Shown here: positions 5,328 to 60,027 of the stretch, piece by piece
Numbering within the stretch: the first letter of the stretch is position 1
How the letters are laid out: each line of letters opens with the position of its first letter
Assembly (NCBI RefSeq): GCF_963576675.1
Contig: NC_088916.1
Location: 21,861,501 to 21,925,500, forward strand
Direction: 5' to 3'
Source: Euphorbia lathyris
Lineage: Eukaryota; Streptophyta; Magnoliopsida; Malpighiales; Euphorbiaceae
Length of the DNA stretch: 64,000 bases
Position numbers and translations under genes: made by a program
The notes under the pieces: generated by a model
Databases searched by the model: none
What the model was told of the DNA's origin: nothing
What the model saw: only the letters and a program-made list of their open reading frames with translations

Positions 5328-5330
5328 TCA

Positions 5331-7153: not shown

Positions 7154-7237
7154 TGGTGGGGCGTGCGGTAGAGCTCTAAATAAATATTATGATAAGTGCG
7201 TTACGACGATGGATGTGATCTTTCTAAATGCTCTATC
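7154..7237 (-). mobile_element. Athila 5' LTR, part 1 (interrupted by copia)
   Basis: These are the 84 bp of the LTR next to the primer-binding site. The LTR is cut at ctatc (7233-7237) by the copia element and resumes after the duplicated ctatc at 15841-15845. The continuation at 15846 completes an LTR of about 1.8 kb. Confidence 0.8.
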
Positions 7238-8938
7238 TGTTAGGGATTATTGCCAGTTAATCAACTGTAGCGCAGTGGAATTGCGGTTTAAAATTTATTT
7301 CTAATCCCTTTAGTTTGATCTTTGTCCGTTAACCATTAATTGAATAAAACTTTTTGGATCCGTTTAGGGATAAAAACTTACCCGGACTGTCTCTTCTAGA
7401 GACGGCTGAAGAATCCACAAAGTAGTAAGATCTCTGTAGTCAGGTGCACGAACAGCTATCGAGTCAAAACCGGTGCTAGCCGAAGAACGAAGAAGAACTG
7501 GAGAGAAAAGGTAATTCGCCAAGTTGAATCCCACTATTGAGAATGGTGGCTGCGAAAACAATATTGCTTTTCCCAAGCAATTTGATTTGGCCGAATGTCT
7601 ATGTTAGGATAGTTAATTAGGTTTTAGCCTTTTATTATATATAGTGTAGTTATTCCTAAACCTAATTGGTTTAGGGTTAATTGGTTAATTACAAAACTAA
7701 TCTAATCCTAACATAATCACTTAAACAAATACCAATAGTATTTATTCTATGCAATTAGTTACAATTAGATTAAATTTAATTACCCCAATTAAATAAATAA
7801 CACTAATTAATAAATTGACGTATTAGTTTGATTAATTATTCACGAATGCAATTTCATTAATTTATAAATTAATTAATTACATCCCGTAAATTAATTAACC
7901 AATTAAATACTCAAGGCCTAAATCCATTAATCAATTACATTGATACAAAGTATCAACTAATCAATTAATTAACCACCAATTAATTACCTTGACATTTTAT
8001 TGTCAACCAATTAATTAATCTCATCCCTCCAGTGTACCGTTCTATAAGTTCTAACTCAGATGTTCAATGTGCACGATCCTATGGGACTGTCCTTAGCTAG
8101 CAGTGGTCTCACGGCCCACAGACAGTAAGTGGGTTCTAGCAAACCATTACTGCCCCTAACCAATACAGCTATTTCAGCAATCTTAAGATGCAGAGACCCT
8201 GTAGTTATCTCTTAACTTCTTTTACCATTTGATGTCGATATTATAAACTAGAGGCATGGCGGCTGTCATCCTCTCTGATGTTTATGATATTTCTTGATCT
8301 TAAGTAGATTGATGAAACAGATAAGTAAACTACTTATCAGGGTGTGGCCACACACTTATCAATCTCACTTATCAAGTGGCCTGTGATATCATCTCACTAT
8401 TACATGAGTGGTAATTCCATCACTTCAATATCAATACCAACGTGTTCACCTGTTCACCCAATCATACCCGTATTTGGCATCTTGTTACAGACCTGTTAGG
8501 CGTATGTCAAAGTGAACCGGATCCCACATTGATATTATAATGAAATCTGGTCTGAAGACAGTTAGAGACCTACTTAAGAAAACTAATGACACAACCACCA
8601 TGTAGTTTTCTCGGGCGGATCGATCCAGTCACATGTATACAACATGTACCCATATTCACAACTGACTTATCAAGTGCTATGGCTAGTATCAATTACTACC
8701 ATACAGTCGTCGAATATACAAGTCTGTGGTCCTAATCATTCCCATGATAGAATAGACTTGGGATATGGTTTTACGATTGTCAATCAATGGATTCTCTATT
8801 CATATTATAGCACAAGATATAAATGAACTAGATTAATGCCTTTATTAATGTAACACAAATAGTGTATCTATGCAAGAATAATCAAAAGCATAATACAATA
8901 TACATGAACCAATGTCTAAGAACTAGGGCACACCAACA
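7238..8938 (-). repeat. Copia 3' LTR
   Basis: 1,701 bp. On the plus strand it begins tgttagggatt and ends cacaccaaca. It matches 14140-15840 with about 12 mismatches by eye. Long AT-rich runs of aattaatt type fill its middle. Confidence 0.95.
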
Positions 8939-8952: not shown

Positions 8953-11900
8953 CTAGTTCCAGGTAGGCATTGCCCTAATCCCTATAGATCTAGTATGACC
9001 ATCATGTAGGCACTGTGCAAGTGCCTTGGTAAACGGATCTGCGACATTGTTCTCGGTGTCAACTCTCTGTAATGTAATGTCACCTCTCGCCTGGATCTCC
9101 CGGATGAGGTGAAACTTTCTAAGTACATGTTTGGATCTCTTGTGTGATCGAGGCTCCAGTGCTTGTGCTATGGCACCGTTGTTATCACGGGAAACATCAA
9201 CTGCACCTAGGATAGTGGGAACTACACCTAAGTCAGTTATGAACTTCTTGATCCAAACTGCTTCCTTTGCAGCATCACATGCAGCTATGTACTCAGCTTC
9301 CGTTGTAGAATCGGCAATGGTAGGCTGCTTTGAGGATCTCCAACTAATGGCACCGCCATTCAGGAGAAAAACATAACTAGATTGTGATTGTTTCTGATCC
9401 TCATTAGTCTCGAAACTTGCATCAGTGTAACCTGATACTTCCAGCTCCTCTTGCCCACCAAAAACTAAAAAGAGATCCTTGGTACGCTTAAGGTACTGTA
9501 GGATAGCCTTAACTGCCTTCCAGTGCTCCTCACCGGGATCTGACTGGTACCGGCTAGTCATGCTAAATGCAAATGCAACATCTGGCCTTGTACATAACAT
9601 AGAGTACATGATAGATCCTATAGCTGACGCATATGGGACCTTTTCCATGTTCTCTCTGTCCTTCTTTGTTTGAGGACAATCTTTCTTACCAAGTTTCAAC
9701 CCATGGCGCATAGGCATGAATCCTTTCTTAGCCTGGTCCATGCTGAATCTTCTAAGAACTTTGTCTATGTATGTTGCCTGACTCAAGCCTAGAAGTCTGT
9801 TGGATCTATCTCTGTAGATCCTGATCCCTAAGATCGTTTCGGCTTCTCCTAAGTCTTTCATTGCGAAGCATTTACTCAACCACTGCTTCACTCCTTGCAG
9901 TGTTGGTATATCGCCTCCAATGAGCAGTATGTCATCGACATACAATATTAGGAAAGTGGATATGCTCCCACTGAATTTCATATACACACAAGGTTCATCA
10001 GGATTCTGCACGAAACCATATTCAGTTATGGCTTCATTGAATCTCTGATTCCAAGACCTAGATGCTTGCTTCAATCCATAAATGGATCTTTGAAGCTTAC
10101 ATACTCGGTTAGGATACTTTGGATCGATAAAACCCTCTGGTTGTGTCATGTAGACATCCTCCAGTAACTTCCCATTCAGGAAAGCGGTTTTAACATCCAT
10201 CTGCCATATCTCATAGTTATACCATGCAGCTATGGCCAGTACTATCCTAATGGATTTGAACATAGCAACTGGTGAAAAGGTTTCATCATAGTCAATTCCT
10301 TGGATTTGTCTATAACCTTTTGCCACCAGTCGCCCCTTGAAGGTGTTATAGGCTTTTAATTTGAAACACCACTTGCAGCCAATTGTTTTAACACCCGGAG
10401 GTGGATCCACCAAGTTCCACACCTGGTTATCACGCATAGACTGCATTTCAGCCTCCATAGCTTTACGCCATTGATCTGATTGTGGGATTTCAATAGCCTC
10501 TTGATAAGTCTTGGGCTCATCCTGGTCATCGACCATTATGTCCCCATCATCAGTCACGACAAAACCGTACCTTTCGGGTTGATGACGTGTCCTATCAGAC
10601 CTTCTAGGTTCCTGTGTAACTGGTTCAGCCTCCTCAATTTCTTGAGGACCTAAATCAGTTACCTGAGCATCCTCAGCATCTGCTGTAGGAGTCGGTGAGT
10701 CTTGAATCTCAGCGAGATCAATATTGCTCCCACTGTCTACTTTGGAAAGGAATTCCTTTTCCAAAAAGACTGCAAACCTGGCCACGAATGTTTTATTCTC
10801 GGCTGGGTTGTAGAAGTAATAACCCTTAGTTTCCTTAGGGTAACCCACGAACTGGCATTTGACAGATTTGGACTCTAGTTTGCCACTCATCAATTTCTTG
10901 ATATGTGCATCACAACCCCAAATCTTCATGAAGGAAACGTTGGGCTTTCGGCCCGTCCATAATTCATATGGTGTTCCTTCAACTGCCTTGCTCGGTGTAT
11001 TATTAATTATATGAGCAGCAGTTTCCAAAGCAAATCCCCAAAAGGAGATAGGGAGAGAAGCTTGACTCATCATTGAGCGGACCATGTCAAGCAGGGTCCT
11101 GTTCCTCCTTTCTGACACTCCATTCCATTGGGGTGTACCAGGAGGAGTGAGTTGGGATACAATCCCACACTCTCTCAAGAATGAGACAAACTCTTGGCTC
11201 AAATATTCGCCCCCTCTATCAAACCGAAGCGCTTTTACTTTCTTGCCAAGTTGATTTTCTACTTCATTTTTAAAATCTTTGAATCTCAGAAGAGTTTCAG
11301 ATTTATGTTTCATCAGATACACATACCTGTATCGGCTATAGTCATCTGTGAAGGTAACAAAGTACAGAAAACCAGATCTAGCACCGGTGCTCATTGGACC
11401 GCATACATCTGAGTGTATCAGCTCCAATAGTTCTGTGGCCCTTACACTAGTTTTGGTGAAAGGCGCCTTTGTCATCTTCCCTCTTAAACAGGATTCACAC
11501 GTGTCATAAGACTGCATGTCAAATGACCCTAGCGCTCCACTAGAGTGAAGCATAGTTATGCGTTTCTCATTTATGTGGCCAAGACGACAGTGCCAGATAT
11601 ATGTAGGATTCAGATCATTAGTCTTAATCCTTTTAGCGTTTATGTTATAGATTGATTCACTACGTTTTAGATCAAGGATATACAAACCATTTTCTAGAAA
11701 TGCGGTTCCATAAACAATATTGCCACGATGTATAGAAATCCTACCACGTCCAATATTAAAATTAAAACCGGAAATATCCAACATAGAAACTGAGATAATG
11801 TTCCTGCGCATTGCAGGTACAAAACAACAATCTCTAAGTTCTAAAACTAAACCAGTAGGCATCTCTAAAGTGTAATCTCCGATCTCCAAGGCCTCTACAC

Positions 11901-12408
11901 GAGCACCATTGCCGACTCGAAGATCCACTTCACCAGATCCTAACAACCTCCTATTTCTCAGTCCCTGCACATTTGAACAAATGTGAGTACCACATCCAGT
12001 GTCTAAAACCCAAGATGTAGAAATAGCCAGATTTATCTCAACAACATAAATGCCAGAACCAGAAGCTTTAGCCTTCTGTTTCTCCCTTAGCTTTGGACAC
12101 ATGTTCTTCCAGTGTCCCTTCTCATTACACTCGTGACAGATATCATCTGCCAAGGCCAACCTACCTTTAGGAGCTGCCGCCTTCCTTGTCTTTGACTTGG
12201 CCTTTTGGGCGTTTGCCTTGGACTTGGACTTGGCCTTTCCCTTAGGTGTGTTCCCTTTGTTGGTTGGTAAGGTAGCAATCAGTACATATCCCTTCCACTC
12301 GTGTCTACAAACCTTTTGTGAGTTCATAGGACAGTCAAGGAAATCAGTCCCTGAAAGTTTTTCCTTTTCTAGGAATGGTCCGAGTAAGTTGTTGCTTGTT
12401 GCATTCAT
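8953..12408 (-). CDS. Ty1/copia Gag-Pol polyprotein, intact but capsid-deleted
   Basis: An uninterrupted 1,151-residue polyprotein. From the N terminus: a short Gag start (MNATSNNLLGPFLEKEKLSG), a CCHC zinc knuckle (CHECNEKGHWKNMC, residues 91-104), protease (VLDTGCGTH, about 134-142), the zinc-binding H273/H278/C304/C307, and integrase with D333, D397 and E433 (DD35E spacing). Reverse transcriptase follows with LYVDDILLIG (about 822-831), then RNase H (GYTDASFE; DSTTEAEYIAA). The approximately 200-residue capsid region normally between the Gag start and the knuckle is absent. Residue 25 runs into unrelated sequence and then a Lys/Ser/Ala-rich basic stretch. Lineage is uncertain. The 1.7-kb LTRs would suit an Angela-like element. 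Confidence 0.95.
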   Translation of the reverse strand: MNATSNNLLGPFLEKEKLSGTDFLDCPMNSQKVCRHEWKGYVLIATLPTNKGNTPKGKAKSKSKANAQKAKSKTRKAAAPKGRLALADDICHECNEKGHWKNMCPKLREKQKAKASGSGIYVVEINLAISTSWVLDTGCGTHICSNVQGLRNRRLLGSGEVDLRVGNGARVEALEIGDYTLEMPTGLVLELRDCCFVPAMRRNIISVSMLDISGFNFNIGRGRISIHRGNIVYGTAFLENGLYILDLKRSESIYNINAKRIKTNDLNPTYIWHCRLGHINEKRITMLHSSGALGSFDMQSYDTCESCLRGKMTKAPFTKTSVRATELLELIHSDVCGPMSTGARSGFLYFVTFTDDYSRYRYVYLMKHKSETLLRFKDFKNEVENQLGKKVKALRFDRGGEYLSQEFVSFLRECGIVSQLTPPGTPQWNGVSERRNRTLLDMVRSMMSQASLPISFWGFALETAAHIINNTPSKAVEGTPYELWTGRKPNVSFMKIWGCDAHIKKLMSGKLESKSVKCQFVGYPKETKGYYFYNPAENKTFVARFAVFLEKEFLSKVDSGSNIDLAEIQDSPTPTADAEDAQVTDLGPQEIEEAEPVTQEPRRSDRTRHQPERYGFVVTDDGDIMVDDQDEPKTYQEAIEIPQSDQWRKAMEAEMQSMRDNQVWNLVDPPPGVKTIGCKWCFKLKAYNTFKGRLVAKGYRQIQGIDYDETFSPVAMFKSIRIVLAIAAWYNYEIWQMDVKTAFLNGKLLEDVYMTQPEGFIDPKYPNRVCKLQRSIYGLKQASRSWNQRFNEAITEYGFVQNPDEPCVYMKFSGSISTFLILYVDDILLIGGDIPTLQGVKQWLSKCFAMKDLGEAETILGIRIYRDRSNRLLGLSQATYIDKVLRRFSMDQAKKGFMPMRHGLKLGKKDCPQTKKDRENMEKVPYASAIGSIMYSMLCTRPDVAFAFSMTSRYQSDPGEEHWKAVKAILQYLKRTKDLFLVFGGQEELEVSGYTDASFETNEDQKQSQSSYVFLLNGGAISWRSSKQPTIADSTTEAEYIAACDAAKEAVWIKKFITDLGVVPTILGAVDVSRDNNGAIAQALEPRSHKRSKHVLRKFHLIREIQARGDITLQRVDTENNVADPFTKALAQCLHDGHTRSIGIRAMPTWN

Positions 12409-14138: not shown

Positions 14139-14139
14139 C

Positions 14140-15840
14140 TGTTAGGGATTATTGCCAGTTAATCAACTGTAGCGCAGCGGAATTGCGGTTTAAAATTTAT
14201 TTCTAATCCCTTTAGTTTGATCTTTGTCCGTTAACCATTAATTGAATAAAACTTTTTGGATCCGTTTAGGGATAAAAACTTACCCGGACTGTCTCTTCTA
14301 GAGACGGCTGAAGAATCCATAAAGTAGTAAGATCTCCGTAGTCAGGTGCACGAACAGCTATCGAGTCAAAACCGGTGCTAGCCGAAGAACGAAGAAGAAC
14401 TGGAGAGAAAAGGTAATTCGCCAAGTTGAATCCCACTATTGAGAATGGTGGCTGCGAAAACAATATTGCTTTTCCCAAGCAATTTGATTTGGCCGAATGT
14501 CTATGTTAGGTTAGTTAATTAGGTTTTAGGCTTTTATTATATATAGTGTAGTTATTCCTAAACCTAATTGGTTTAGGGTTAATTGGTTAATTACAAAACT
14601 AATCTAATCCTAACATAATCACTTAAACAAATACCAATAGTATTTATTCTATGCAATTAGTTACAATTAGATTAAATTTAATTACCCCAATTAAATAAAT
14701 AACACTAATTAATAAATTGACGTATTAGTTTGATTAATTATTCACGAATGCAATTTCATTAATTTATAAATTAATTAATTACATCCCGTAAATTAATTAA
14801 CCAATTAAATACTCAAGGCCTAAATCCATTAATCAATTACATTGATACAAAGTATCAACTAATCAATTAATTAACCACCAATTAATTACCTTGACATTTT
14901 ATTGTCAACCAATTAATTAATCTCATCTCTCCAGTGTACCGTTCTATAAGTTCTAACTCATATGTTCAATGTGCACGATCCTATGGGACTGTCCTTAGCT
15001 AGCAGTGGGCTCACGGCCCACAGACAGTAAGTGGGTTCTAGCAAACCATTACTGCCCCTAACCAATACAGCTATTTCAGCAGTCTTAAGATGCAGAGACC
15101 ATGTAGTTATCTCTTAACTTCTTTTACCATTTGATGTCGATATTATAAACTAGAGGCATGGCGGCTGTCATCCTCTCTGATGTTTATGATATTTCTTGAT
15201 CTTAAGTAGATTGATGAAACAGATAAGTAAACTACTTATCAGGGTGTGGCCACACACTTATCAATCTCACTTATCAAGTGGCCTGTGATATCATCTCACT
15301 ATTACATAAGTGGTAATTCCATCACTTCAATATCAATACCAACGTGTTCACCTGTTCACCCAATCATACCCGTATTTGGCATCCTGTTACAGACCTGTTA
15401 GGCGTATGTCAAAGTGAACCGGATCCCACATTGATATTATAATGAAATCTGGTCTGAAGACAGTTAGAGACCTACTTAAGAAAACTAATGACACAACCAC
15501 CATGTAGTTTTCTCGGGCGGATCGATCCAGTCACATGTATACAACATGTACCCATATTCACAACTGACTTATCAAGTGCTATGGCTAGTATCAATTACTA
15601 CCATACAGTCGTCGAATATACAAGTCTGTGGTCCTAATCATTCCCATGATAGAATAGACTTGGGATATGGTTTTACGATTGTCAATCAATGGATTCTCTA
15701 TTCATATTATAGCACAAGATATAAATGAACTAGATTAATGCCTTTATTAATGTAACACAAATAGTGTATCTATGCAAGAATAATCAAAAGCATAATACAA
15801 TATACATGAACCAATGTCTAAGAACTAGGGCACACCAACA
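14140..15840 (-). repeat. Copia 5' LTR
   Basis: 1,701 bp, nearly identical to 7238-8938. It is followed by the target duplication ctatc at 15841-15845. Confidence 0.95.
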
Positions 15841-17649: not shown

Positions 17650-20620
17650 AGAGAAAGAAGATACATACTAGAGGCAGAGGGCGAAACAGTTTTGGTTGAA
17701 GGGGGCGATTTATATACTAAGTTTTTCCATGCCTGTGTCAGAATTAGGAAGAAACAGAATCAGATTCTATCTCTACAGGGGGAGGATGGGCGAATTGTGA
17801 AGGAGCAAGAGGAATTAAAGGAGCAGGCCAAAGAGTACTTTCAGAAAGCATACAAACAGAATGAAGAGGGCAGCCTGGAGACAGTTAGTGTTCTTACTAC
17901 TGTGGTTTCGGACAGAGACAATATGCTTTTAACTAAGCCGTTTACATTGGCAGAATTTACAGAGGCTAGTTTTCAAATGCACCCTGAAAAATCGCCAGGA
18001 CCAGATGGGCTTAATCCAAGCTTTTATCAGTTCTTTTGGCCAGTAATTGGGAAGGAAATATTCAAAGCGTGCAAGGGGTGGCTAGAGCGTCGGGAATTCC
18101 CGACCAATTTGAATGATACTATTATAGTATTGATTCAAAAAATTGATTCCCCGAGTATAATGGCAGATTATAGGCCTATAGCACTTTGCAATGTGTTGTA
18201 CAAAATAATCTCCAAAGTTCTTGCTAACACATGAATTTTCACATGCACCTTAATGAGCAAGTGAATTTGCTCATTCACCGTTAGATATATACTTATTAAA
18301 TCTAAGCCGCATGATGCTTTGAATCTCCACCTTACGATTCTAATAAGCCTAGATCTAATGGTGAATGAACAAATTCTACATGCTCATTAAGGTGCATGTG
18401 ATCAAGACTGCTTGCTAACATGCTAAAAGGAATACTTCCTAACCTTATTAGTGAGACTCAAGCAGCTTTTGTCCCTAGAAGGTCTATAATTGATAGTGTA
18501 TAGGTATCTTTTGAAGCTATTCACTATATGAAAAGAAAGAACAAGGGAGAACAAGGAGAGGTGGCGCTAAAGATTGACATTAGCAAAGCCTATGATATAG
18601 TGGATTGGAGATTCATGGAAGTTGTTATGAAGGGCATGGGGTTTAGTGAGGTGTGGATCCAATGGATAATGCTTTGTGCGACGACGGTCAAGTACTCAAT
18701 TTCCGTTAACAATGAGTTGGCAGGGCCGGTTAATCCAGGGAGAGGAATTAGGCAAGAAGATCCGTTATCACCGTACTTATTCATACTGTGTGCGGAGGTG
18801 CTGTCCCAATTAATCTACAAGGTAGAGAGGGAGGATCTGATAAGAGGATGCAAGGTGTGCAGAGGAGCCCCAGTGGTATCACATCTGTTCTTTGCAGATG
18901 ATAGCTTTCTGTTCTTTGGGGCAACCGTTGTGGAAGCTGAAAATGTGCTGAGAATCCTAAATGCGTATGAAAAGGCCTCAGGGCAAGCAGTGAATGTCAA
19001 CAAATCAGGTATTTTCTTTAGAAATAATGTAAAAAGAGAGGTAAGGGAGGGGATTTGTAATGTTTTAGGAGTATAGGCCCCGTTGAATACGGGCAAATAT
19101 TTAGGGCTCCCATCTCTGATTGGAAGGTCAAAAAGAAGTTTGTTTTCGTTTCTCATAGATAGACTAAGAAAGCGTGTTAATGGGTGGAGCTTTAAATTCT
19201 TATCTAGTGCTGGTAAGGATGTATTGATCAAAACAGTAGCTCAAACGCTTCCTACGTTCTGTATGAGCACTTTCCTTATTCCTAAGTCTATTTGTGAGGA
19301 GCTACAACAAATAATGAATTCCTTCTGGTGGGGTAAAAAAGAGAATGGGTCAGAGAGGATTCATTGGTTTGGATGGGAGAAGTTGTGTAAACCAAGGGAT
19401 AAAGGGGGTCTGGGGTTTAGAAGTTTACATATGTTTAATCTGGCTCTACTAGTAAAGCAAGGCTGGAAATTCATAGCCAACCCAAATACTTTAGTCAATA
19501 GATTGTTCAAAGAAAAATATTTCCCAACTGACAATTTTCTAAAGTCCAAGCTAGGTAGAAATCCTAGTTTTATTTGGAGAGGTATTTGGCAATCGATTGA
19601 AGTTTTAAGCCTGGGCCTGAAATGGGAAGTGGGAAATGGGGAGGAAATTAGAATATGGAGGGACCCGTGGGTGGAAAGGGAAGGTTCGACTTTATGGAGT
19701 CTAGAGGGCCGGAAGGACTGGAGGAAATGAGGGTAGTAGGGTTATTTGAGGAAGGTACAATGATTTGGGATAGGGGAAAGTTGGCTGAGTTATGCTCAAA
19801 TAGGGAGATTGAGGCAATTGACAGGTTAATCTTACCAATTAGAGATAGACCTGATAGATTGGCATGGCAGTATACAAAAAATGGGTGTTACTTGTCAAAA
19901 TCTGGGTATAGGGCAATTGAGGAAGTGAAATGGGGTAGGGAGCCTAAAGTGGAGTGGAGTAAAATATGGGAGTTACCGATTCCGCCAAAAATTAAGATGT
20001 TTGCTTGGAAGGTCTGCTCTGGTTGTTTACCAATGAGATCAACTTTAAGGGCTCGACATATGATCTTACCGAATAATTGCTTGATTTGTGAAATAGATAT
20101 TGAATATAGTTGGCATTTGTTCTGTGCGTGTCCGTATGCGGTTCAGTGTTGGCAAGGAATGGGATTAAATCCACCAGTTGGGGACTACGATGATGTTGTT
20201 GATTGGTTGAGTGCAAAGTGTGTCAGTGAGACTACATAATTTTTAACAAAAGCAATTTGCGCTCTATTTTCTATCTGGCAGCATAGGAATGTTGTGTTGT
20301 GGAAGAATGAACTGATCCCGATGTTTATTAGGACCCAGATGGTGCGTAAGCTCGTGTCGGAGTGGAATGATGCAAAGGAGAAGAGAGGGAGGGCAGAGGT
20401 TGATCAGCGATCAAGGTATGGAGGGGAGATGGGGATATACGGGAGAGAGATTAATCGAGAGGGAGGAGGGGTGCAGATTGAATGGAGGGCGAAATTAAAC
20501 AGGGGCGGGATGGGTTCGGAGGAGGTTGGTACTGAAATGAGAGGTTGCGAAGGGGAAGGTAGTGGAGCTGGCACTTGGACGGTTACAGAAAGCAGGAGTC
20601 TGTTTATATTGGAAGGGTGA
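17650..20620 (+). pseudogene. LINE reverse transcriptase and zf-RVT region (copy A)
   Basis: The RT start has [16 protein letters not shown] and [17 protein letters not shown]. After the MITE it continues with GIRQEDPLSPYLF and the catalytic FADDSFLFF. A zf-RVT domain follows (PPKIKMFAWKVCSGCLP). Compared with copy C there is TAG at about 18498, TAG for TGG at 19074-19076, a 1-bp loss near 19687 and a short insertion with TAA near 20237. GIRQED replaces the usual GIRQGD that copy C keeps. It is not functional. Confidence 0.9.
18230..18410. mobile_element. 181-bp MITE inside the LINE RT
   Basis: Terminal inverted repeats of about 50 bp (cacatgcaccttaatgagca at both ends in inverted orientation) flank a short AT-rich centre. 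The 10-bp direct repeat cttgctaaca occurs at 18220-18229 and 18411-18420. LINE copy C has this site once and uninterrupted. Duplication length suggests a Mutator-like (9-10 bp) origin. There is no coding capacity. Confidence 0.9.
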
Positions 20621-20665
20621 AGCAACAACAATTTAGATGGAAGAGTACAGCAGCAGCAAATCGAT

Positions 20666-21280
20666 GTGGCTGCAGAACAACATTTTGATCGACAGGAGCA
20701 ACAACAGGTCGTAGGTGCTGGTGAATTGCAGCAATTGGAGGTACAGGGTAGTGGGAGGAACTATGGGATGCAAACGCCAAAAGTAAAGAGCTGGAAAAGA
20801 CGGAGTAGAGGGAGGATGAAGTGCAATATAGATGGAGCCGTCTTTATAAGTTCGGGCTGCTACAGTTGGGGAGCAGTTGTAAGGGAAGAAGACGGTTCTT
20901 TTATGGCAGGGGCGAGTGGAATTTTAAGGGAAATTTGTTCGGCTAGAGTGGTGGAAGCTATGGCGTTGAGAGCGGGATTGGTATGGGCAATGGAAGTAGA
21001 ACTTGATAATGTTCAGTTTGAATTGGATGCACAGGTTGTGGTGAAGGGAGATAATACAGAAAAACCAGATTTATCTACTTTTGGAGACATAATTGAAGAT
21101 TGCAAGGAGTTACTGAAAAATAAGACGTTTACTGTGTCTTTTGTTCCAAGACTAGAGAATAGAGCGGCTCACCAAATAGCCAGGCTTGCTCTTTCAAATG
21201 CTAGTTTTTATTCTTTTTTTGATTTGCTAGATTGGCTAATAAGTGTAATTGAAGATGATATTATTACTTCAGCTATATAA
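20666..21280 (+). pseudogene. LINE RNase H domain (copy A)
   Basis: RVT_3-type RNase H at the LINE C terminus: KCNIDGAVF (first Asp), SWGAVVREEDGSF, VEAMALRAGLVWA (Glu), FELDAQVVV (Asp), and VSFVPRLENRAAHQIARLA. It is in the same frame as the RT but separated by TGA at 20618-20620, which copy C shares. It ends close to the LINE 3' end. Confidence 0.85.
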
Positions 21281-21298
21281 TTTGAGATTTTTCCTTCC

Positions 21299-21625
21299 AA
21301 TAAAAATACACACAAAATAAAAACTTCATCACTCCCTTAAATATAAATATTTAAGTCTCATAACAAATAATAACAATTTAGTTACCATTTTTTTCAATCT
21401 TAATAATCTCATAAATAAAAATTATAAAATTTATTTTACCAAATACAACTAAATTCGAAATAATATCTAATGAATAATAGAAAAAAAAACTATAAAATAA
21501 AAATAAATAAAGAAGCAAATCTAAATAAATGTCAAGAAATCCGTAGAATATCGTACCATATATAGGAACTAGATTACATCAAATCTGCCCTAATTAAGGT
21601 TTTTTTTTTGTTGAAGCACATAGTA
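21299..21625. other. Upstream region of peptide gene A
   Basis: AT-rich DNA also found, with small changes, upstream of genes B (about 51390-51583) and C (58262-58590). Apart from the TATA region just downstream I see no defined motif. Confidence 0.5.
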
Positions 21626-21642
21626 GCTACTATATAAGTAGC
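21626..21642 (+). promoter_or_regulatory. TATA box of gene A inside an inverted repeat
   Basis: The sequence gctact-atata-agtagc is a perfect 6-bp inverted repeat around the TATA core (tatataag from 21631), 58 bp before the start codon. It is identical in genes B (51584-51600) and C (58591-58607). The spacing suits a core promoter with a short 5' UTR. Confidence 0.75.
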
Positions 21643-21699
21643 AGCAGAATTAAGAATTCTAAACCATTCTTTCTTCATAATTTTGTAAAACACAAAAAT

Positions 21700-22095
21700 A
21701 TGAAGGTTTTGATAGTTATAGCATTTCTTATGGTTTCTTCTACTGAAGCCGGCCGCCATACCCTTTCTTCCTCTGGTGACCTTCCAGTGTCTGAAAGTTA
21801 CTATGTAAAGGTGCATGATCAATGGCACTTGAAAAGGCTCGTTCCCTCCGGTCCTAATCCTATAACTTCTCCGGGAACACCTCCATCGATCGGTTCTAAG
21901 AGGCTTGTTCCGTCAGGTCCTAATCCCGCAGTTTCTCCTGAATTACCTCCATTGATCGGTTCTAAGAGGCTTGTTCCTTCCGGTCCTAATCCTGCAGTTT
22001 CTCCTGACTTACCTCCATTGATCGGTTCTAAGAGGCTTGTTCCGTCCGGACCTAATCCAGAAACTTCTATGGGAACTCCTCCGTTTGAGTTCTAA
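21700..22095 (+). CDS. Candidate multi-CLE signalling peptide precursor, 4 repeats (gene A)
   Basis: A 131-residue protein with an N-terminal signal peptide (MKVLIVIAFLMVSSTEA, likely cleaved before GR), then a spacer to residue 45 (ending HDQWHLK). Three full 22-residue units and a final 20-residue unit follow, starting at residues 46, 68, 90 and 112. Each begins RLVPSGPNP, identical to the first nine residues of Arabidopsis CLE9/10-type peptides. Lysine precedes every unit and linkers are Pro/Ser/Gly-rich (SPGTPPSIGSK). CLE peptides are secreted, processed ligands of leucine-rich-repeat receptor kinases. Residues 10-12 here are ITS, AVS, AVS and ETS rather than LHN/LHH. No intron is needed. 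CLE assignment rests on motif, signal peptide and size. Release of active peptide is inference. Confidence 0.85.
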   Translation: MKVLIVIAFLMVSSTEAGRHTLSSSGDLPVSESYYVKVHDQWHLKRLVPSGPNPITSPGTPPSIGSKRLVPSGPNPAVSPELPPLIGSKRLVPSGPNPAVSPDLPPLIGSKRLVPSGPNPETSMGTPPFEF

Positions 22096-22142
22096 AAGGC
22101 ATGGGTACTAATCCTGATGAGTCTCCATTGTTGAGTTTTGAG
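22089..22142 (+). repeat. Vestigial extra repeat in the 3' UTR of gene A
   Basis: The sequence around and after the stop, ttctaaaaggcatggg then actaatcctgatgagtctcc, aligns with the coding unit (ttctaagaggcttgtt ... cctaatcctgcagtttctcc) with a 7-bp gap. The stop TAA is the 'tctaag' of the next unit read in a shifted frame after a 2-bp loss. Genes B and C show the same. Confidence 0.75.
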
Positions 22143-22171
22143 GATGTAGTGAATTAGTTTATTATTACTAA

Positions 22172-22177
22172 AATAAA
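22172..22177 (+). terminator. Poly(A) signal AATAAA of gene A
   Basis: aataaa lies 77 bp after the stop codon. It is conserved in B (52329-52334) and C (59136-59141). Confidence 0.6.
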
Positions 22178-23622
22178 GAGAGATGATAGATTAATATTTC
22201 TTTTGGTTACAAATTATAAATCGATAAATTATGCGTATTCCTATTCCCATTTCTTCGTATTGCATGTCTTTTTAGATATTTTTTACATGATCAATTAAGT
22301 TACATACTCTGTGTTATAAAACGCAGGTTTAGTAAAATTAATTAAAATAATAGACTTATCATATAATTAATAAATAGTGAAATCAATAATAATATATATT
22401 TTTTAATATTCTTAATTTCTGTGCAACTCTCTTAAAAGCATGTAATATAAAACGGAGGAAATAGTATTTTTCACTCTATTAAACTAAATTACAATCTAAA
22501 TATTTATAATATAAAATAACTCTTTACTAAGAACATGCGACTCTTTACTAAACAATATAACAACTCAATAAACGTGACTGTTTATAATTCTATCAAAGTT
22601 AATTTAATGTAGCACCAACAATTCTTATGTGGTAAGTGATTATTGAAATAAAAAATTTCATTAAAGCAACCCCTGAATAAAAGGGAAGCAATATTTTTAA
22701 AAAAAAAATCTATTGATTCCTGTATGTTTTTTTTTTGAAAAGTTGATTCCTGTATAATACATATGTTGTGTGAAATAATTTAAAAAATCGGAAAATAATT
22801 TGTTTAGTGGAATTCAAATCAGTTTATTTACTAAATCAATTTACTTCTTTTATCTGCAAATAATTTTCATATGAAAGAATTCAATTAATTCCACACGCTT
22901 TCATTGATGCCCTTGTTGAATAGAATCATTTGAATTCCAATAACTAATCAACAGTTGGTTTGAGTGATAGGGAGTTAAATATCTGTTTATTAGATTTTAA
23001 ACGCGCCTTGCGCGGCTCATGTATCATATTTAATTATTTTGGTAATTTATTAGTATATTATAACATTAAAAAAGAAAAGAACAAATAATCAGATTATAAC
23101 CTTAATTGTAAAGAGACTGAACATGTGAAACATATATAACTTCAAATAAAAACTAAGACGAAATTTATAAATGATGGAGTTTTTTTGGAACATAACATCA
23201 TAGTAATAAACTAAAAATTAGTCCAGTAATTTCTTATGATATAATTTCTTGTTTATATTAGCGACAACAGAGAGAATTTACAAGAAGTATTTTGGAGTTT
23301 TTTTTTGGCTTAGTTGGTATCGTAAGAGCAAAAAGAATAAATGAGTAAATGAGTTTTAATTATCTCTATATCATAAGTACTATATTGACACATTATTTAT
23401 TGTCAATTACTAGCTCATTAATCAAAGTAATAAAAGAAAGTAAGAGTTTATAGGAAGATGAAAAACCACAAAACGAAGGAAATCCAAAAGTCACAAATAA
23501 ACCTATATATAAAGCATGATATATAGCATTCCATCATTATATTCATTAGCCACCAAACATTAAAGACCTCCCCGACCTTTAATTTTGATTATGTATGATT
23601 TTGTTCTTAACCTTATTATTTT
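22178..23622. other. AT-rich intergenic DNA, shared with the copy-C flank
   Basis: No gene is seen. It is near-identical to 59142-60027 plus 61030-61831, where the copy-C flank has two extra insertions. It contains homopolymers and an isolated GC motif, cgcgccttgcgcgg, near 23003. Confidence 0.7.
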
Positions 23623-42559: not shown

Positions 42560-44302
42560 TAAGCAACAGTTCGGGATTTTTTTCCCGAACGGAGCTGGAA
42601 AAAAAAAAAAAAATTTGGCACCGCAAATCATCAAGTTTTTGGCGATTGCGATAAAATCAGTAAGTTGTCTTCTCCACCCTAACTTTTTGCACATGCGCAT
42701 GATGGTTTTAGATGCAATGTTGGAACTTATTGGATATTTTAAGTGTGAGGAGGAGGGGTAGACAAACTTACAAAAATTTGTATAATTTTTAAATTTTTGT
42801 GGCGTCGTGTCTAGTTTAGTTTAAACGCTTTTGGGTTTTATTTATGTTTTTGCATGTTTAGGACCTAAAACCGTGAACCTCCTTCGAATCTAAACTTCGT
42901 TATTTGTCCTTGAGGGCTGAGAACCAAATCTAAGATTGCATGACAACTAGTTTAGGTGTAGGACACAATCCTTGTATCTGTAAAAGCATGAGCTAAAGTT
43001 TGCATTTAGACCCTACTTTTGAAGAAATGCTAAAATCATTACTTAGGTAGATAACTTAAGAATTGAAGGCATGTGATATTAAACTTGAGTTTGGGGAGAA
43101 CTAGTAAGCACAAATTTGAAACCCAAGAACTGTGAGTTGAATTTGAGCCAAAGAGCGAACATCAAAAAGCTCTTTTTCTTGACATTTTTGTGTGAATGCT
43201 TTGACTTGTGGAAAGATTACAAATTTTGCACCTAATACTGAGTTAAACCTACATGCGATGATTTGAGATGTTAAACGATGAATCAGCCTCACTAGAATTA
43301 ACCCTTTTCTTTACCTTATTTTCTCTTTTTCATCCACTTTAGGAAGCCCCTATGAGCCTGTATTTTTGTAGTTTGTAGATTTTTCTTTCGTTCTAACCCA
43401 AATTTTTGCAAACCATCACTTGGTTTGTTGCTTAACCCGAGTTTTTGCAAAGCTCGCATTGAGCCTTTGTTTTCTTCTAGCGCTTTATCCTTGTTTATGG
43501 CACCATAGTAGCAAGCCAAAAGGCTAAGAAGTGAATGAGCGTTACTATCCAAAAAGAAAAAAAAAGAGAAAAAGAAAAAACAGAAAAGAAAAAGAAAAGA
43601 GACGAACAAAAGAAGGAGAACCATATCTCCCAAGTCTTAAAATTAGAACGTCTCAGAAAAAATATGTGAATAAAAAGCTCAATCACTTCACAATTTGCTA
43701 AAGCCATTTTAAACTTTGTTTTTCTAGCGCTAGAACTCCTAACCCTTGTTGTACCTTTAACCCTCTAACCACATTACAACCCCAATTCGAGGCTGTTTTT
43801 GATATCATCGGAGTCATATAGCATAGTAGAGGCTAGAACTCCTAACCCTTGTTGTACCTTTAACCCTCTAACCACATTACAACCCCAATTCGAGGCTGTT
43901 TTTGATATCATCGGAGTCATATAGCATAGTAGAGGAACTCGAATGAACGTGCAAAATCAACGTAATCCTAAGCAAGAACATAAGCCGAGAGTAAACACTT
44001 TAGCCACCAAAATTGTGTGAATTGAGTGAACTACCTATGGTGAGGTGTTTTACTTAGCTATCCCATTAAGCTCGTTTAATTGAACATGTGTCCTTTTTCT
44101 TAAACATATGACCTGTGATAATTGAAATGCGGCTTTTGGATATCGTGTCTCTACTTTGTATTTCCGAATGCATGTAATTACAGATGCACGAAATTGTGTC
44201 AAGCACCTAGTCAAACCAGGAGGTTTTCTAGCTTGCTTGTGATTGCGGGTTTAGTTTTTTAGTTTACTTGGGGACAAGTAAAGTTTTAAGTGCAAGAAGG
44301 TT
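42560..44302 (+). other. Athila-2 3' non-coding internal region
   Basis: No gene. The motif cttgggaggcaacccaag, which I recall from Athila elements behind pol, is just upstream at about 42298-42315. A purine run lies at 43545-43620, and a 103-bp tandem duplication at 43729-43934. tacttggggacaagtaaag precedes the 3' LTR, the region where the polypurine tract is expected. Confidence 0.6.
43729..43934. repeat. 103-bp tandem duplication
   Basis: Two adjacent, apparently identical copies of a unit starting gctagaactcctaaccc (43729 and 43832). This is a recent local duplication within the element. Confidence 0.9.
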
Positions 44303-51583: not shown

Positions 51584-51600
51584 GCTACTATATAAGTAGC
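51584..51600 (+). promoter_or_regulatory. TATA box of gene B inside an inverted repeat
   Basis: gctact-atata-agtagc, identical to gene A, 58 bp before the start codon. Confidence 0.75.
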
Positions 51601-51658: not shown

Positions 51659-52252
51659 ATGAAGGTTTTGATAGTTATAGCATTTCTTATGGTTTCTTCT
51701 TGTGAAGCCGGCCGCCATACCCTTTCTTCCTCCGGTGACATTCCAGTGTCTGAAAGTTACTATGTAAAGGTGCATGATCAATGGCACTTGAAAAGGCTCG
51801 TTCCCTCCGGTCCTAATCCTATAACTTCTCCAGGAACACCTCCGGCGTTCGGTTCTAAGAGGCTTGTTCCCTCCGGTCCTAATCCTCAAACTTCTCCGGG
51901 AACACCTCTATCGTTCGGTTCTAAGAGGCTTGTTCCATCAGGTCCTAATCCTGCAGTTTCTCCTGACTTACCTCCATTGATCGGTTCTAAGAGGCTTGTT
52001 CCGTCAGGTCCTAATCCTGCAGTTTCTCCTGACTTACCTCCATCTATCGGTTCTCAGAGGCTTGTTCCGTCCGGTCCTAATCCTGCAGTTTCACCTGACT
52101 TACCTCCATTGATCGGTTCTAAGAGGCTTGTTCCTTCCGGTCCTAATCCTGCAGTTTCTCCTGAATTACCTCCATCGTTCGGTTCCAAGAGGCTTGTTCC
52201 CTCCGGTCCTAATCCTCAAACTTCTCCGGGAACACCTCCATTTGAGTTCTAA
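51659..52252 (+). CDS. Candidate multi-CLE signalling peptide precursor, 7 repeats (gene B)
   Basis: A 197-residue protein with a signal peptide (MKVLIVIAFLMVSSCEA) and the same 28-residue spacer as gene A. Seven units of 22 residues (last one 20) follow, each starting RLVPSGPNP. Residues 10-12 are ITS, QTS, AVS, AVS, AVS, AVS, QTS. Six units are preceded by lysine and one by glutamine (GSQ). The units of genes A and C lie within this set, so unit number changed by unequal exchange or slippage. Unlike A and C there is no LINE upstream, but a MULE-like element ends about 280 bp before the start. This is the longest intact member. It would be secreted, with processing to CLE-like peptides inferred. 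Confidence 0.87.
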   Translation: MKVLIVIAFLMVSSCEAGRHTLSSSGDIPVSESYYVKVHDQWHLKRLVPSGPNPITSPGTPPAFGSKRLVPSGPNPQTSPGTPLSFGSKRLVPSGPNPAVSPDLPPLIGSKRLVPSGPNPAVSPDLPPSIGSQRLVPSGPNPAVSPDLPPLIGSKRLVPSGPNPAVSPELPPSFGSKRLVPSGPNPQTSPGTPPFEF

Positions 52253-52299
52253 AAGGCATGGGTACTAATCCTGATGAGTCTCCATTGTTGAGTTCTGAG
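52253..52299 (+). repeat. Vestigial extra repeat in the 3' UTR of gene B
   Basis: aaggcatggg, then actaatcctgatgagtctcc and ccattgttgagttctgag align with a coding unit, as in gene A. Confidence 0.7.
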
Positions 52300-52328
52300 A
52301 ATGTAGTGAATTAGTTTATTATTACTAA

Positions 52329-54839: not shown

Positions 54840-57582
54840 GGGCGAAACAGTTCTGGTTGAAGGGGGCGATTTAAATAATAAGTTTTTCCATGCCTGTGTC
54901 AGAATTAGGAAGAAACAGAATAAGATTCTATCTCTACAGGGGGAGGATGGGCGAATTGTGAAGGAGCAAGAGGAATTAAAGGAGCAGGACAAAGAGTACT
55001 TTCAGAAAGCATACAAACAGAATGAATAGGGTAGCCTGGAGACAATTAGTGTTCTTACTACTGTGGTTTCGGACAGAGACAATATGCTTTTAACTAAGCC
55101 GTTTACATTGGCAGAATTTACAGAGGCTATTTTTCAAATGCACCCTGAAAAATCGACAGGACCAGATGGGCTTAATCGAAGCTTTTATCAGTTCTTTTGG
55201 CCAGTAATTGGGAAGGAAATATTCAAAGCGTGCAAGGGGTGGCTAGAGCGTCGGGAGTTCCCGACCAATTTGAATGATACTATTATAGTATTGATTCCAA
55301 AAATTGATTCCCCGAGTATAATGGTAGATTATAGGCCTATAGCACTTTGCAATGTGTTGTACAAAATAATCTCCAAAGTTCTTACTAACATGCTAAAAGG
55401 AATACTTCCTCACCTTATTAGTGAGACTCAAGCAGCTTTTGTCCCTAGAAGGTCTATAATTGATAGTGTACATGTATCTTTTGAAGCTATTCACTATATG
55501 AAGAGAAAGAACAAGGGAGAACAGGGAGAGGTGGCGCTAAAGATTGACATTAGCCAAGCCTATGATAGAGTGGATTGGATATTTATGGAAGTTGTTATGA
55601 AGGGCATGGGGTTTAGTGAGGTGTGGATCCAATGGATAATGCTTTGTGGGACGACGGTCAAGTACTCAATTTCCGTTAACAATGAGTTGGCAGGGACGGT
55701 TAATCCAGGGAGAGGAATTAGGCAAGGAGATCCGTTATCACCGTACTTATTCATACTGTGTGCGGAGGTGCTGTCCCAATTAATCTACAAGGCAGAGAGG
55801 GATGATCTGATAAGAGGATGCAAGGTGTGTAGAGGAGCCCCAGTGGTATCACATTAGTTCTTTGCAGACGATAGCTTTCTGTTCTTTGGGGCAACAGTTG
55901 TGGAATCTGAAAATGTGCTGAGAATCCTGAATGCGTATGAAAAGGCCTCAGGGCAAGCAGTGAATGTCAACAAATCAGGTATTTTCTTTAGAAATAGTGT
56001 AAAAAGAGAGGTAATGGAGGGGATTTGTAATGTTTTAGGAGTATGGGCCCCGTTGAATACGGGCAAATATTTAGGGCTCCCATCTCTAATTGGAAGGTCA
56101 AAAAGAAGTTTGTTTTCGTTTCTCATAGATAGACTAAGAAAGTGTGTTAATGGGTGGAGCTTTAAATTCTTGTCTAGTGCTGGTAAGGATGTATTGATCA
56201 AAACAGTAGCTCAAACGCTTCCTACGTTCTGTATGAGCACTTTCCTTATTCCTAAGTCTATTTGTGAGGAGCTACAACAAATAATGAATTCCTTCTGGTG
56301 GGGTAAAAAAGAGAATGGGTTAGATAGGATTCATTGGTTTGGATGGGAGAAGTTGTGTAAACCAAGGGATAAAGGGGGTCTGGGGTTTAGAAGTTTACAT
56401 ATGTTTAATCTGGCTCTACTAGGAAAGCAAGGATGGAAATTCATAGCCAACCCAAATACTTTAGTCAGTAGATTGTTCAAAGAAAAATATTTCCCAACTG
56501 ACAATTTTCTAAAGTCCAAGCTAGGCAGAAATCCTAGTTTTATTTGGAGAGGTATTAGACAATCGATTGAAGTTTTAAGCCTGGGCCTGAAATGGGAAGT
56601 GGGAAATGGGGAGGCAATTAGAATATGGAGGGACCCGTGGGTGGAGAGGGAAGGTTCATTCTTTATGGAGTCTAGAGGGCCGGAAGGGCTGGAGGAAATG
56701 AGGGTAGCAGGGTTATTTGAGGAAGGTACAATGATTTGGGATAGGGGAAAGTTGGCTGAGTTATGCTCAAATGGGGAGATTGAGGCAATTGACAGGTTAA
56801 TCTTACCAATTAGAGATAGACCTGATAGATTGGCATGGCAGTATACAAAAAATGGGTGTTACTTGTCAAAATCTGGGTATAGGGCAATTGAGGAAGTGAA
56901 ATGGGGTAGGGAGCCTAAAGTGGAGTGGAGTAAAATGTGGCAGTTACCGATTCCGCCAAAAATTAAGATGTTTGCCTGGAAGGTCTGCTCTGGGTGTTTA
57001 CCAATGATATCAACTTTAAGGGCTCGACATATGATCTTACCCAATAATTGCTTGATTTGTGAAATAGATATTGAATATAGTTGGCATTTGTTCTGTGCGT
57101 GTCCGTATGCGGTTCAGTGTTGGCAAGGAATGGGATTAAATCCACCAGTTGGGGACTACGATGATGTTGTTGATTGGTTGAGTGCAAAGTGTGTCAGTGA
57201 GACTACAACAAAAGCAATTTGCGCTCTATTTTCTATCTGGCAGCATAGGAATGTTGTGCTGTGGAAGAATGAACTGATCCCGATGTTTATTAGGACCCAG
57301 ATGGTGCGTAAGCTCGTGTCGGAGTGGAATGATGCAAAGGAGAAGAGAGGGAGGGCAGAGGTTGATCAGCGATCAAGGTGTGGAGGGGAGATGGGGATAT
57401 ATGGGAGAGAGATTAATCGAGAGGGAGGAGGGGTGCAGATTGAATGGAGGGCGAAATTAAACAGGGGCGAGATGGGTTCGGAGGAGGTTGGTACTGAAAG
57501 GAGAGGTTGCGAAGGGGAAGGTAGTGGAGCTGGCACTTGGACGGTTACGGAAAGCAGGAGTCTGTTTATATTAGAAGGGTGA
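54840..57582 (+). pseudogene. LINE reverse transcriptase and zf-RVT region (copy C)
   Basis: The RT has [46 protein letters not shown] and FFADDSFLFF. A zf-RVT domain follows, with LPIPPKIKMFAWKVCSGCLP. Frame 55063-57582 is one frame broken by TAG at 55855-55857, immediately before the catalytic FFADD box. Further stops are at about 54871 and 55027. It lacks the MITE, the frameshift and GIRQED of copy A. Confidence 0.9.
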
Positions 57583-58255
57583 AGCAGCAACAATTTAGAT
57601 GGAAGAGTACAGCAGTAGCAAATCGATGTGGCTGCAGAACAACATTTTGATCGACAGGAGTAACAATAGGTCGTAGGTGCTGGTGAATTGCAGCAATTGG
57701 AGGTACAGGGCAGTGGGAGGAACTATGGGATGCAAACGCCAAAAGTAAAGAGCTGGAAAAGACTGAGTAGAGGGAGGTTGAAGTGCAATATAGATGGAAC
57801 CGTCTTTACAAGTTCGAGCTGCTACAGTTGGGGAGCAGTTGTAAGGGCGGAAGACGGTTCTTTTATGGCAGGGGCGAGTGGAATTTTAAAGGAAATTTGT
57901 TCGGCTAGAGTGGTGGAAGCTATGGCGTTGAGAGCGAGATTGGTATGGGCAATGGAAGTAGAACTTGATAATGTTCAGGTTGAATTGGATGCAGAGGTTG
58001 TGGTGAAGGGAGATAATATAGAAAAACCAGATTTATCTACTTTTGGAGACATAATTGAAGATTGCAAGGAGTTACTGAAAAATAAGACGTTTACTGTGTC
58101 TTTTGTTCCAAGACTAGTGAATTGAGCGGCTCACCAAATAGCTAGGCTTGCTCTTTCCAATGCTAGTTTTTATTCTTTTTTTGATTTTCCAGATTGGCTA
58201 ATAAGTGTAATTGAAGAGGATATTATTACTTCAGCTATATAATTTGAGATTTTTC
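57583..58255 (+). pseudogene. LINE RNase H domain (copy C)
   Basis: KCNIDGTVFTSS, SWGAVVRAEDGSF, VEAMALRARLVWA, VELDAEVVV. Relative to copy A it has extra stops in the Gln-rich linker where A has CAG/CAA codons (57616-57667), and TGA at 58123-58125. It is not functional. Confidence 0.85.
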
Positions 58256-58590
58256 CTTCCAAAAAAAATACACACAAAATAAAAACTTCATCACTCCCTT
58301 AAATATAAATATTTAAGTCTCATAACAAATAATAACAATTTAGTTATCATTTTTTTCAATCTTAATAATCTCATAAATAAAAATTATAAAAATTATTTTA
58401 CCAAACACAACTAAATTCGAAATAATATCTAAAGAATAATAGAAAAAAAAACTATAAAATAAAAATAAATAAAGAAGCAAATCTAAATAAATGTCAAGAA
58501 ATCCGTAGAATATCAAACCATATATAGGAACTAGATTACATCAAATTTGCCCTAATTTAGTTTTTTTTTTTTTTGCTGAAGCACATAGTA

Positions 58591-58607
58591 GCTACTATAT
58601 AAGTAGC
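58591..58607 (+). promoter_or_regulatory. TATA box of gene C inside an inverted repeat
   Basis: gctact-atata-agtagc, 58 bp before the start codon. The next base differs from A and B (agtagcatc). Confidence 0.7.
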
Positions 58608-58664
58608 ATCAGAATTAAGAATTCTAAACCATTCTTTCTTCATAATTTTGTAAAACACAAAAAT

Positions 58665-59059
58665 ATGAAGGTTTTGATAGTTATAGCATTTCTTATGGTT
58701 TCTTCTACTGAAGCCTGCCGCTATACCCTTTCTTCCTCCGGTGACCTTCCAGTGTCTGAAAGTTACTATGTAAAGGTGCATGATCAATGCCACTTGAAAA
58801 GGCTCATTCCCTCCGGTCCTAATCCTATAACTTCTCCGGGAACACCTCCATCGATCGGTTCTAAGAGGCTTGTTCCTTCCGGTCCTAATCCTGCAGTTTC
58901 TCCTGACTTACCTCCATTGACGGTTCTAAGAGGCTTGTTCCTTCCGGTCCTAATCCCGCAGTTTCACCTGAATTTCCTCCATTGATCGGTTCTAAGAGGC
59001 TTGTTCCGTCCGGACCTAATCCACAAACTTCTCCGGGAACACCTCCGTTTGAGTTCTAA
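58665..59059 (+). pseudogene. Multi-CLE peptide precursor with 1-bp deletion (gene C)
   Basis: Same architecture and unit number as gene A (4 units) but one base shorter. At about 58920 attgacggttct stands where the other units have attgatcggttct, and the frame shifts. The uninterrupted product (58665-58985) is 106 residues: signal peptide, spacer, two CLE-like units (RLIPSGPNPITS and RLVPSGPNPAVS), and an unrelated 21-residue tail. Other changes are likely harmful: W to C in the spacer (HDQCHLK), G to C and H to Y just after the signal peptide. TATA and poly(A) signals are intact, so it may still be transcribed. Confidence 0.85.
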
Positions 59060-59135
59060 AAGGCATGGGTACTAATCCTGATGAGTCTCCATTGTTGAGT
59101 TCTGAGGATGTAGTGAATTAGTTTATTATTACTAA

Positions 59136-59141
59136 AATAAA
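59136..59141 (+). terminator. Poly(A) signal AATAAA of gene C
   Basis: Same position relative to the gene end as in A and B. Confidence 0.55.
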
Positions 59142-60027
59142 GAGAGATGATAGATTAATATTTCTTTTGGTTACAAATTATAAATCGATAAATTATGCGT
59201 ATTCCTATTCCTATTTCTTCGTATTGCATGTCTTTTTAGATATTTTTTACATGATCAATTAAGTTACATACTCTGTGTTATAAAACGCAGGTTTAGTAAA
59301 ATTAATTAAAATAATAGACTTATCATATAATTAATAAATAGTGGAATCAATAATAATATATTTTTTTAATATTCTTAATTTCTGTGCAACTCTCTTAAAA
59401 GACATGTAATATAAAAAGGAGGAAATAGTATTTTTCACTCTATTAAAGTAAATTACAATCTAAATATTTATAATATAAAATAACTCTTTACTAAGAACAT
59501 GCGACTCTTTACTAAACAATATAACAACTCAATAAACATGACTGTTTATAATTCTATCAAAGTTAATTTAATGTAGCACCAATAATTCTTATGTGGTAAG
59601 TGATTATTGAAATAAAAAATTTCATTAAAGCAACCCCTGAATCAAAGGGAAGCAGTATTTTTAAAAAAAAAATCTATTGATTCCTGTATGTTTTTTTTTA
59701 AAGCTGATTCCTGTATAATACATATGTTGTGTGAAATAATTTAAAAAATCGAAAAATAATTTTTTTAGTGGAATTCAAATCAGTTTATTTACTAAATCAA
59801 TTTACTTCTTTTATCTGCAAATAATTTTCATATGAAAGAATTCAATTAATTCCACACGCTTTCATTGATGCCCTTGTTGAATAGAATCATTTGAATTCCA
59901 ATAACTAATCAACAGTTGGTTTGAGTGATAGGGAGTTAAATATCTGTTTATTAGATTTTAAACACGTGCCTTGCGCGGCTCATATATCATATTTAATTAT
60001 TTTGGTTATTTATTAGTATATTATAAT
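59142..60027. other. Intergenic DNA downstream of gene C
   Basis: AT-rich, closely matching 22178-23060. No gene seen. Confidence 0.7.

Follow-up and report, generated by a model that had tools for sequence, protein, structure and literature searches.

Two Euphorbia lathyris Genes with Tandem CLE-Like Units as Candidate Precursors of 17-Residue Secreted Signals

Organization of the Loci

The 64,000-nucleotide stretch of Euphorbia lathyris DNA analyzed here (the window) contains three related loci, A, B, and C (Table 1). Genes A and B are built on the same 22-residue repeat plan, in which RLVPSGPNP is followed by a variable tail. The nonapeptide opens all 11 units of the two proteins and is directly preceded by Lys in 10 of them; the linkers of B units 1 to 6 end in GSK (in one case GSQ). 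Residues 10 to 12 are ITS, AVS, QTS, or ETS, not LHN. Each of the two precursors combines two tail types, xTSPGTPP and AVSPD/ELPP. The 66-nt arrays were also recovered independently by Tandem Repeats Finder, with scores of 580 for B, 336 for A, and 313 for C.

Table 1. Positions of the CLE-like repeat loci and associated features in the window
Feature	Position	Strand	Description
Gene B	51659-52252	+	Intact 197-codon ORF; 197 aa; seven CLE-like units at 66-nt spacing
B signal peptide, predicted (MKVLIVIAFLMVSSCEA)	51659-51709	+	Mean hydropathy of 3.57 for residues 3-12
B spacer GRHTLSSSGDIPVSESYYVKVHDQWHLK	51710-51793	+	28 residues
B unit 1	51794-51859	+	Tail ITSPGTPP
B unit 2	51860-51925	+	Tail QTSPGTPL
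B unit 3	51926-51991	+	Tail AVSPDLPP
B unit 4	51992-52057	+	Tail AVSPDLPP; Q replaces K at the end, before unit 5
B unit 5	52058-52123	+	Tail AVSPDLPP
B unit 6	52124-52189	+	Tail AVSPELPP
B unit 7	52190-52249	+	QTSPGTPPFEF, then stop at 52250-52252
Possible decayed extra unit past the B stop (KGMGTNPDESPLLSSENVVN)	52252-52314	+	Other frame; subjected to a shuffle test
TATATAAG element	51589-51596	+	70 bases 5' of the B ATG; also in A (21631) and C (58596)
Gene A	21700-22095	+	Intact 131-codon ORF; 131 aa; four units (21835, 21901, 21967, 22033)
Gene C as read	58665-58985	+	Two in-frame units followed by a frameshifted part; 106 aa
Gene C units 3 and 4	58931-59056	+	Out of frame with the C start
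Duplication arm with gene A	18411-23063	+	Segmental duplication; 96.9% identical to 55381-60026
Duplication arm with gene C	55381-60026	+	Partner of 18411-23063

Each ORF starts with a strongly hydrophobic stretch (mean Kyte-Doolittle value of 3.57 over residues 3 to 12). The predicted signal-peptide cut in B is placed after Ala17 by the -3/-1 rule. The end of the B spacer, DQ-WHL, resembles by eye the EDQPWHLE of a Euphorbia peplus protein, P0001.

Gene C lacks one base near position 58920 that is present in A and B. Its units 3 and 4 thus lie in another frame, and translation stops at 58985, which excludes C as a working four-unit gene. An earlier note had counted 4, 7, and 4 units in A, B, and C, each starting with RLVPSGPNP. 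Both statements hold for A and B, whereas C has only two units in frame and its first unit begins with RLIPSGPNP. Since C is broken, the supposed three genes amount to two genes and a likely pseudogene.

The sequence KGMGTNPDESPLLSSENVVN, located past the stop codon of B, was equaled in score by 35 of 2,000 protein shuffles, which is weak, and by none of 2,000 DNA shuffles. The same tail sequence is also present past A and C. It may represent a further unit, possibly severed by a frameshift that predates the A/B/C duplication.

B has about 1 kb in common with A and C, at 89 to 91% identity. In all three loci, TATATAAG lies 69 to 70 bases 5' of the ATG, and the ATG context and a downstream AATAAA are kept. 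The first 135 coding bases differ at 4 positions between A and B, 4 between A and C, and 6 between B and C. The respective differences are 19/268, 10/277, and 14/265 in the 5' flank and 12/185, 2/185, and 11/185 in the 3' flank. The numbers are small and the picture is mixed; slower divergence of the coding start relative to the flanks is not clear.

Comparison with Canonical CLE Peptides

The units of A and B were scored on a full matrix of 52 tomato CLE 12-mers (PMC9670457, Table 1), two of which have the identical residues 1 to 9, RLVPSGPNP. All 62,053 stop-free 12-mers in the six frames of the whole window were scored as well. The top 15, with 18.2 to 23.3 bits, correspond exactly to the 15 units found in A, B, and C; the next one scores 13.6, which places the arrays well outside chance. 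Leave-one-out scores of the tomato peptides have a minimum of 16.0, a 5th percentile of 21.8, and a median of 32.4. The A/B 12-mers therefore lie at the low end of the range of real CLEs, and the units with AVS fall below the 5th percentile of tomato.

This likeness is unevenly distributed along the unit. The core, residues 1 to 9 (R-x-V-P-x-G-P-N/D-P), is of the CLE type and scores 28.8 bits, at or above 92% of the tomato leave-one-out scores. For residues 10 to 12 the scores are -5.5 to -10.5 bits, and even the lowest of the 52 tomato CLEs (-3.7) exceeds them. None of the 11 A/B units combines His (or Ser) at position 11 with Asn or His at position 12. In TDIF, residues 8, 10, and 12 anchor the C terminus in the receptor, and Asn12 touches Arg421 (PMC5383425). 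Because the end of the motif that defines CLE is absent, A and B are not filed here as canonical CLE genes. In the looser sense of a multi-CLE precursor, with several CLE-like motifs at regular spacing (cf. PMC2254619, Table 2), both genes belong to the type, B with seven units and A with four. Their products would act in CLE fashion.

The earlier note had described a CLE-like tandem precursor and proposed a comparison with CLE profiles. The description is borne out by residues 1 to 9 but does not extend to a standard 12-residue ligand. The comparison gave the above scores on the tomato matrix. When A, B, and eight of the relatives were scanned against Pfam, no model in the copy used matched at the cut-off. 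A subthreshold UTP23 match in A was taken as chance. A precomputed PF27922 label is attached to 21 of the 48 relatives obtained with B (see below), and hmmscan assigned PF27922 to none of the seven labeled proteins tried. A search of PDB sequences returned a single weak match, to an ice-recrystallization-inhibition protein (E value of 0.45), which was rejected as repeat driven.

Relatives in Other Plants

With B as the query, a protein search that scored the best 7,987 candidates yielded 48 relatives within an E-value limit of 10; 28 of these also pass a limit of 1e-3. A second search, with three Brassicaceae-type queries, produced at least 38 at an E value of 1 or better, including 14 new ones, for a total of 62 relatives. 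Since B was the query, this set is biased toward B-like tails.

The best-scoring relatives among these candidates are two Euphorbia peplus proteins with consecutive locus tags, P0001 (E value of 4e-31; GT-type tails) and P0003 (E value of 1.9e-24; AVSPELP tails). The clear units of each are of one tail type, SPGTLP in the former and AVSPELP in the latter. Sources at 1e-3 or better include Euphorbia, Cinchona, Daucus, Sesamum, Craigia, Heracleum, Citrus, Brassica, Arabidopsis halleri, Sesbania, Sarracenia, Dovyalis, Acacia, and Thalictrum. Among weaker matches, the motif is recognizable by eye in Pyrus, Hevea, Acer, Prunus, Rubus, Manihot, Solanum, and the monocot Ensete (E value of 8.8). The variant type is found in many flowering plants.

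Units were extracted with a strict pattern that fixes Val3, Pro4, and Gly6, limits positions 5, 7, and 8, and leaves positions 1, 2, and 9 to 26 free. Among the 62 relatives, 45 contain two or more such units, 11 contain one, and 6 contain none; an N-terminal hydrophobic stretch is found in 54. Conservation was calculated from 48 proteins, weighted per protein: A, B, and 46 of the 48 relatives from the B search (the other two, P0018 and P0046, have no strict unit). In this set, Ser12 (2.66 bits), Pro13 (3.17 bits), Pro16 (2.35 bits), and Pro17 (1.44 bits) stand out, residues 10, 11, 14, and 15 have 1.2 to 1.6 bits, and residue 18 drops to the background (0.62 bits). The linkers remain near background, and conservation climbs directly before Arg1. 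Lys precedes Arg1 in 71 of 132 units, those of A and B included, and the Lys-Arg pair is absent from the other 61. In a CLE peptide, the conserved block is limited to 12 or 13 residues; here it runs to Pro16/Pro17. Conservation through Ser12, Pro13, Pro16, and Pro17, followed by the drop, suggests that the mature product has about 17 residues.

Ser-Pro or Pro-Pro occupies positions 12 and 13 in 111 of the 137 strict-core units of the 62 relatives; 10 units end in His-Asn or His-His, and 16 have other residues. With a looser pattern, CLE-like units ending in HN or HH are found together with variant units in 8 of the 62 proteins (P0016, P0019, P0023, P0028, P0030, P0032, P0037, and P0038). A pear protein, for example, carries RQVPTGPNPLHH beside RLVPSGPNHEESPEE. 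Such mixed precursors tie the variant class to CLE and are the best evidence for its origin from CLE.

The annotated protein P0017 of Brassica cretica contains both a precursor with variant units and a phosphatase-type domain (PF03031); it is possibly a fused gene model.

The Arabidopsis thaliana relative P0055 starts like P0018 of A. halleri and is devoid of any unit. Read in a shifted frame, it is compatible with KRLVPSGPNNATSPPS at two sites, separated by 26 residues, and with KRLVPSGPNN at one more. In control runs, KRLVPSGP was allowed anywhere in a shifted frame by 3 of 2,000 shuffles of P0055; among the other proteins fetched, there is a single compatible site in P0009 and another in P0034. 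As judged from the protein alone, A. thaliana probably has the array in a frame that is not read, through either mutation or annotation.

Selection on the Repeat Units

Five of the nine core codons vary across the 11 A/B units, and the encoded residues 1 to 9 are invariant. Over 55 unit pairs, pS is 0.257 and pN is 0.000 in residues 1 to 9; the pairwise values for residues 10 to 17 are 0.197 and 0.292, respectively. Counted as minimum changes, the core has 8 silent and no replacing ones, as opposed to 6 silent and 16 replacing in residues 10 to 18 (Fisher P = 5e-4). Because repeats homogenize, the units are not independent and the P value overstates the test; the contrast in the core, though strong, does not amount to a clean test. 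A comparison of the 45 N-terminal codons of A and B (signal peptide and spacer) revealed no purifying selection, with 1 silent and 3 replacing changes.

Known Multi-CLE Precursors

The earlier note regarded precursors with several motifs as rare. This view has to be corrected: the literature describes such precursors, some with as many as nine units, in rice, wheat, soybean, Medicago, and Lotus (PMC2254619, PMC5570945, PMC4526924, and PMC6747155). The two legume papers (PMC5570945 and PMC4526924) list three to nine CLE domains per prepropeptide in LjCLE32, -33, -46, and -47, MtCLE14, -22, -26, and -27, and GmCLE37a and -b, which are likened to A and B by description. The Lotus and Medicago genes have repeat units of 24 to 35 residues, and some of them are tandem; in MtCLE14, an Asn is described after each of the four identical 12-residue CLE domains. 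Some reports are more guarded. Oelkers et al. (2008) allow for misannotation of multi-CLE sequences (PMC2254619), MtCLV3 is described as a gene-model error (PMC4526924), and the wheat study guesses that only the first CLE domain is used (PMC6747155). A poplar survey came upon no multi-CLE precursors (PMC4776436). Among the open-access matches listed for the multi-domain CLE wording, only a review was relevant.

A close published case is rice CLE76 (PMC2254619, Table 2). Like A and B, it has tandem motifs (four, spaced by 25 to 29 residues) with PITS in place of PLHN, followed by prolines (RKVPTGPDPITSDPPP). Unlike them, it has Asp8 instead of Asn8, Asp13 instead of Pro13, and prolines at positions 14 to 16. 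It looks like the same subtype, judging by sequence. In that paper it figures among five multi-CLE sequences and is not treated as a class with a conserved 17-residue unit. Arabidopsis CLE9/10 and tomato SlCLE23 and SlCLE31 have RLVPSGPNP as in A and B, but in a single motif with an LHN end at residue 12. The multidomain CLEs of cyst nematodes, likened by description, are animal effectors with C-terminal tandem CLE domains in one secreted protein (PMC8618561).

In the main text of one open-access library, 18 unit strings of A, B, and related genes gave a single match, the rice CLE76 string in PMC2254619. Among the matches listed from the same library, no description of the 17-residue unit as a class was found, and none of the papers listed on CLE in the Euphorbiaceae contains the term "CLE peptide."

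Proposed Processing and Alternative Explanations

The reading that we consider reasonably probable is that A and B encode secreted precursors from which four and seven CLE-derived signals would be released. These signals would have the form RLVPSGPNPxxSPxxPP, with about 17 residues, and would not be standard 12-residue CLE peptides. The predicted signal peptide would be removed at secretion, and a subtilase-type protease would cleave between Lys and Arg, before Arg1 of each unit. Carboxypeptidases would then trim the xxGSK linker and stall at Pro16-Pro17. Parallels exist in CLE40, whose processing involves SBT1.4, SBT1.7, and SBT4.13, and in SOL1, which takes off C-terminal Lys or Arg (PMC13082318). 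Prolines 4 and 7 may be hydroxylated, as they are in TDIF (PMC6749341). The products, for example the predicted 17-mers RLVPSGPNPAVSPDLPP and RLVPSGPNPITSPGTPP, would bind a leucine-rich repeat receptor kinase, either one like CLV1/BAM or a related kinase that accommodates the altered C terminus. The predicted output is five distinct 17-mers from B and four from A, three of them shared. The count of distinct 17-residue units in the two genes agrees with the idea of the earlier note that one product could release many ligands as a mixture. As close paralogues, A and B would differ by three ligand units.

It is rather unlikely that the units are ordinary CLE peptides, with a mature 12-mer (RLVPSGPNPAVS and similar) acting on CLV1/BAM in the manner of CLE9/10 and the rest serving as spacer. 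Residues 1 to 9 do equal those of CLE9/10 (RLVPSGPNPLHN; PMC7552357), the whole 12-mers score above the lowest tomato CLE, and rice CLE76, with its PITS tails, is classed as CLE (PMC2254619, Table 2). TDIF can be cited on either side, as PMC5383425 proposes its N-terminal anchor as a specificity determinant but also counts residues 10 and 12 among the binding anchors. The scores of residues 10 to 12, lower than in any of the 52 tomato CLEs, and the conservation of Pro13 and Pro16 above that of residues 10 and 11 in the relatives both speak against the 12-mer. That A and B encode hydroxyproline-rich, repeat-built proteins of the cell wall or surface, with SPxxPP as glycosylation sites and no hormone precursor, seems very improbable. 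Regular proline-rich repeats with SP and PP motifs, as well as a copy number of 4 versus 7 in paralogues, would suit such proteins. However, it is the CLE core that is invariant in A and B, not the proline-rich tail; the linkers between units are near background conservation, and there are relatives with a single strict unit and relatives that mix variant with HN/HH units.

We also deem it unlikely that all three copies are decaying remnants that yield no product and were merely carried along when segments of a transposon-rich region were duplicated. Decay is evident in the frameshift of C, seemingly also in the A. thaliana relative, and possibly in the unit past the stop of A, B, and C; A and C lie inside a 97% identical duplication, and the N-terminal codons of A and B show no purifying selection. 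Against this stand the fully open frames of A and B, the core with 0 replacing versus 8 silent changes, and the preserved TATA element, start region, and ATG context. The disruption of C and the apparent frame loss in the A. thaliana relative indicate that loss is tolerated, which counts against 17-residue signals from A and B as the main explanation.

More tentatively, and with appreciable doubt, the 17-residue RLVPSGPNPxxSPxxPP peptides could form a second class of CLE-derived hormones across flowering plants, a "long CLE," made as polypeptide strings. As a proline-built C terminus replaces the HN anchor, this class would have its own receptor pocket. It could have been overlooked because CLE searches expect HN or HH at positions 11 and 12 and because the A. 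thaliana copy is out of frame. If so, catalogues of plant peptide hormones based on the 12-residue motif miss a widespread sister class of multidose ligand strings, and the mixed precursors would be a natural record of a hormone family changing its receptor-contact end.

Other Features of the Window

Many of the remaining long ORFs of the window resemble retroelement proteins. ORFs that look like LINE reverse transcriptase and RNase H lie upstream of A and also of C. A gypsy-looking gag-pol region occupies three ORFs at positions 1548 to 6809 on the minus strand; the three best matches of the retroelement gag at 5331 to 6809 are all from Euphorbia, at 58 to 63% identity, with E. lathyris at the top (63%). 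Two 1.7-kb direct repeats (7237 to 8938 and 14139 to 15840), 99.3% identical, lie on either side of a copia-looking polyprotein ORF (8953 to 12408, minus strand) and are probably the long terminal repeats of a young element. At positions 43729 to 43935, a 103-base unit is duplicated in tandem as a perfect copy.
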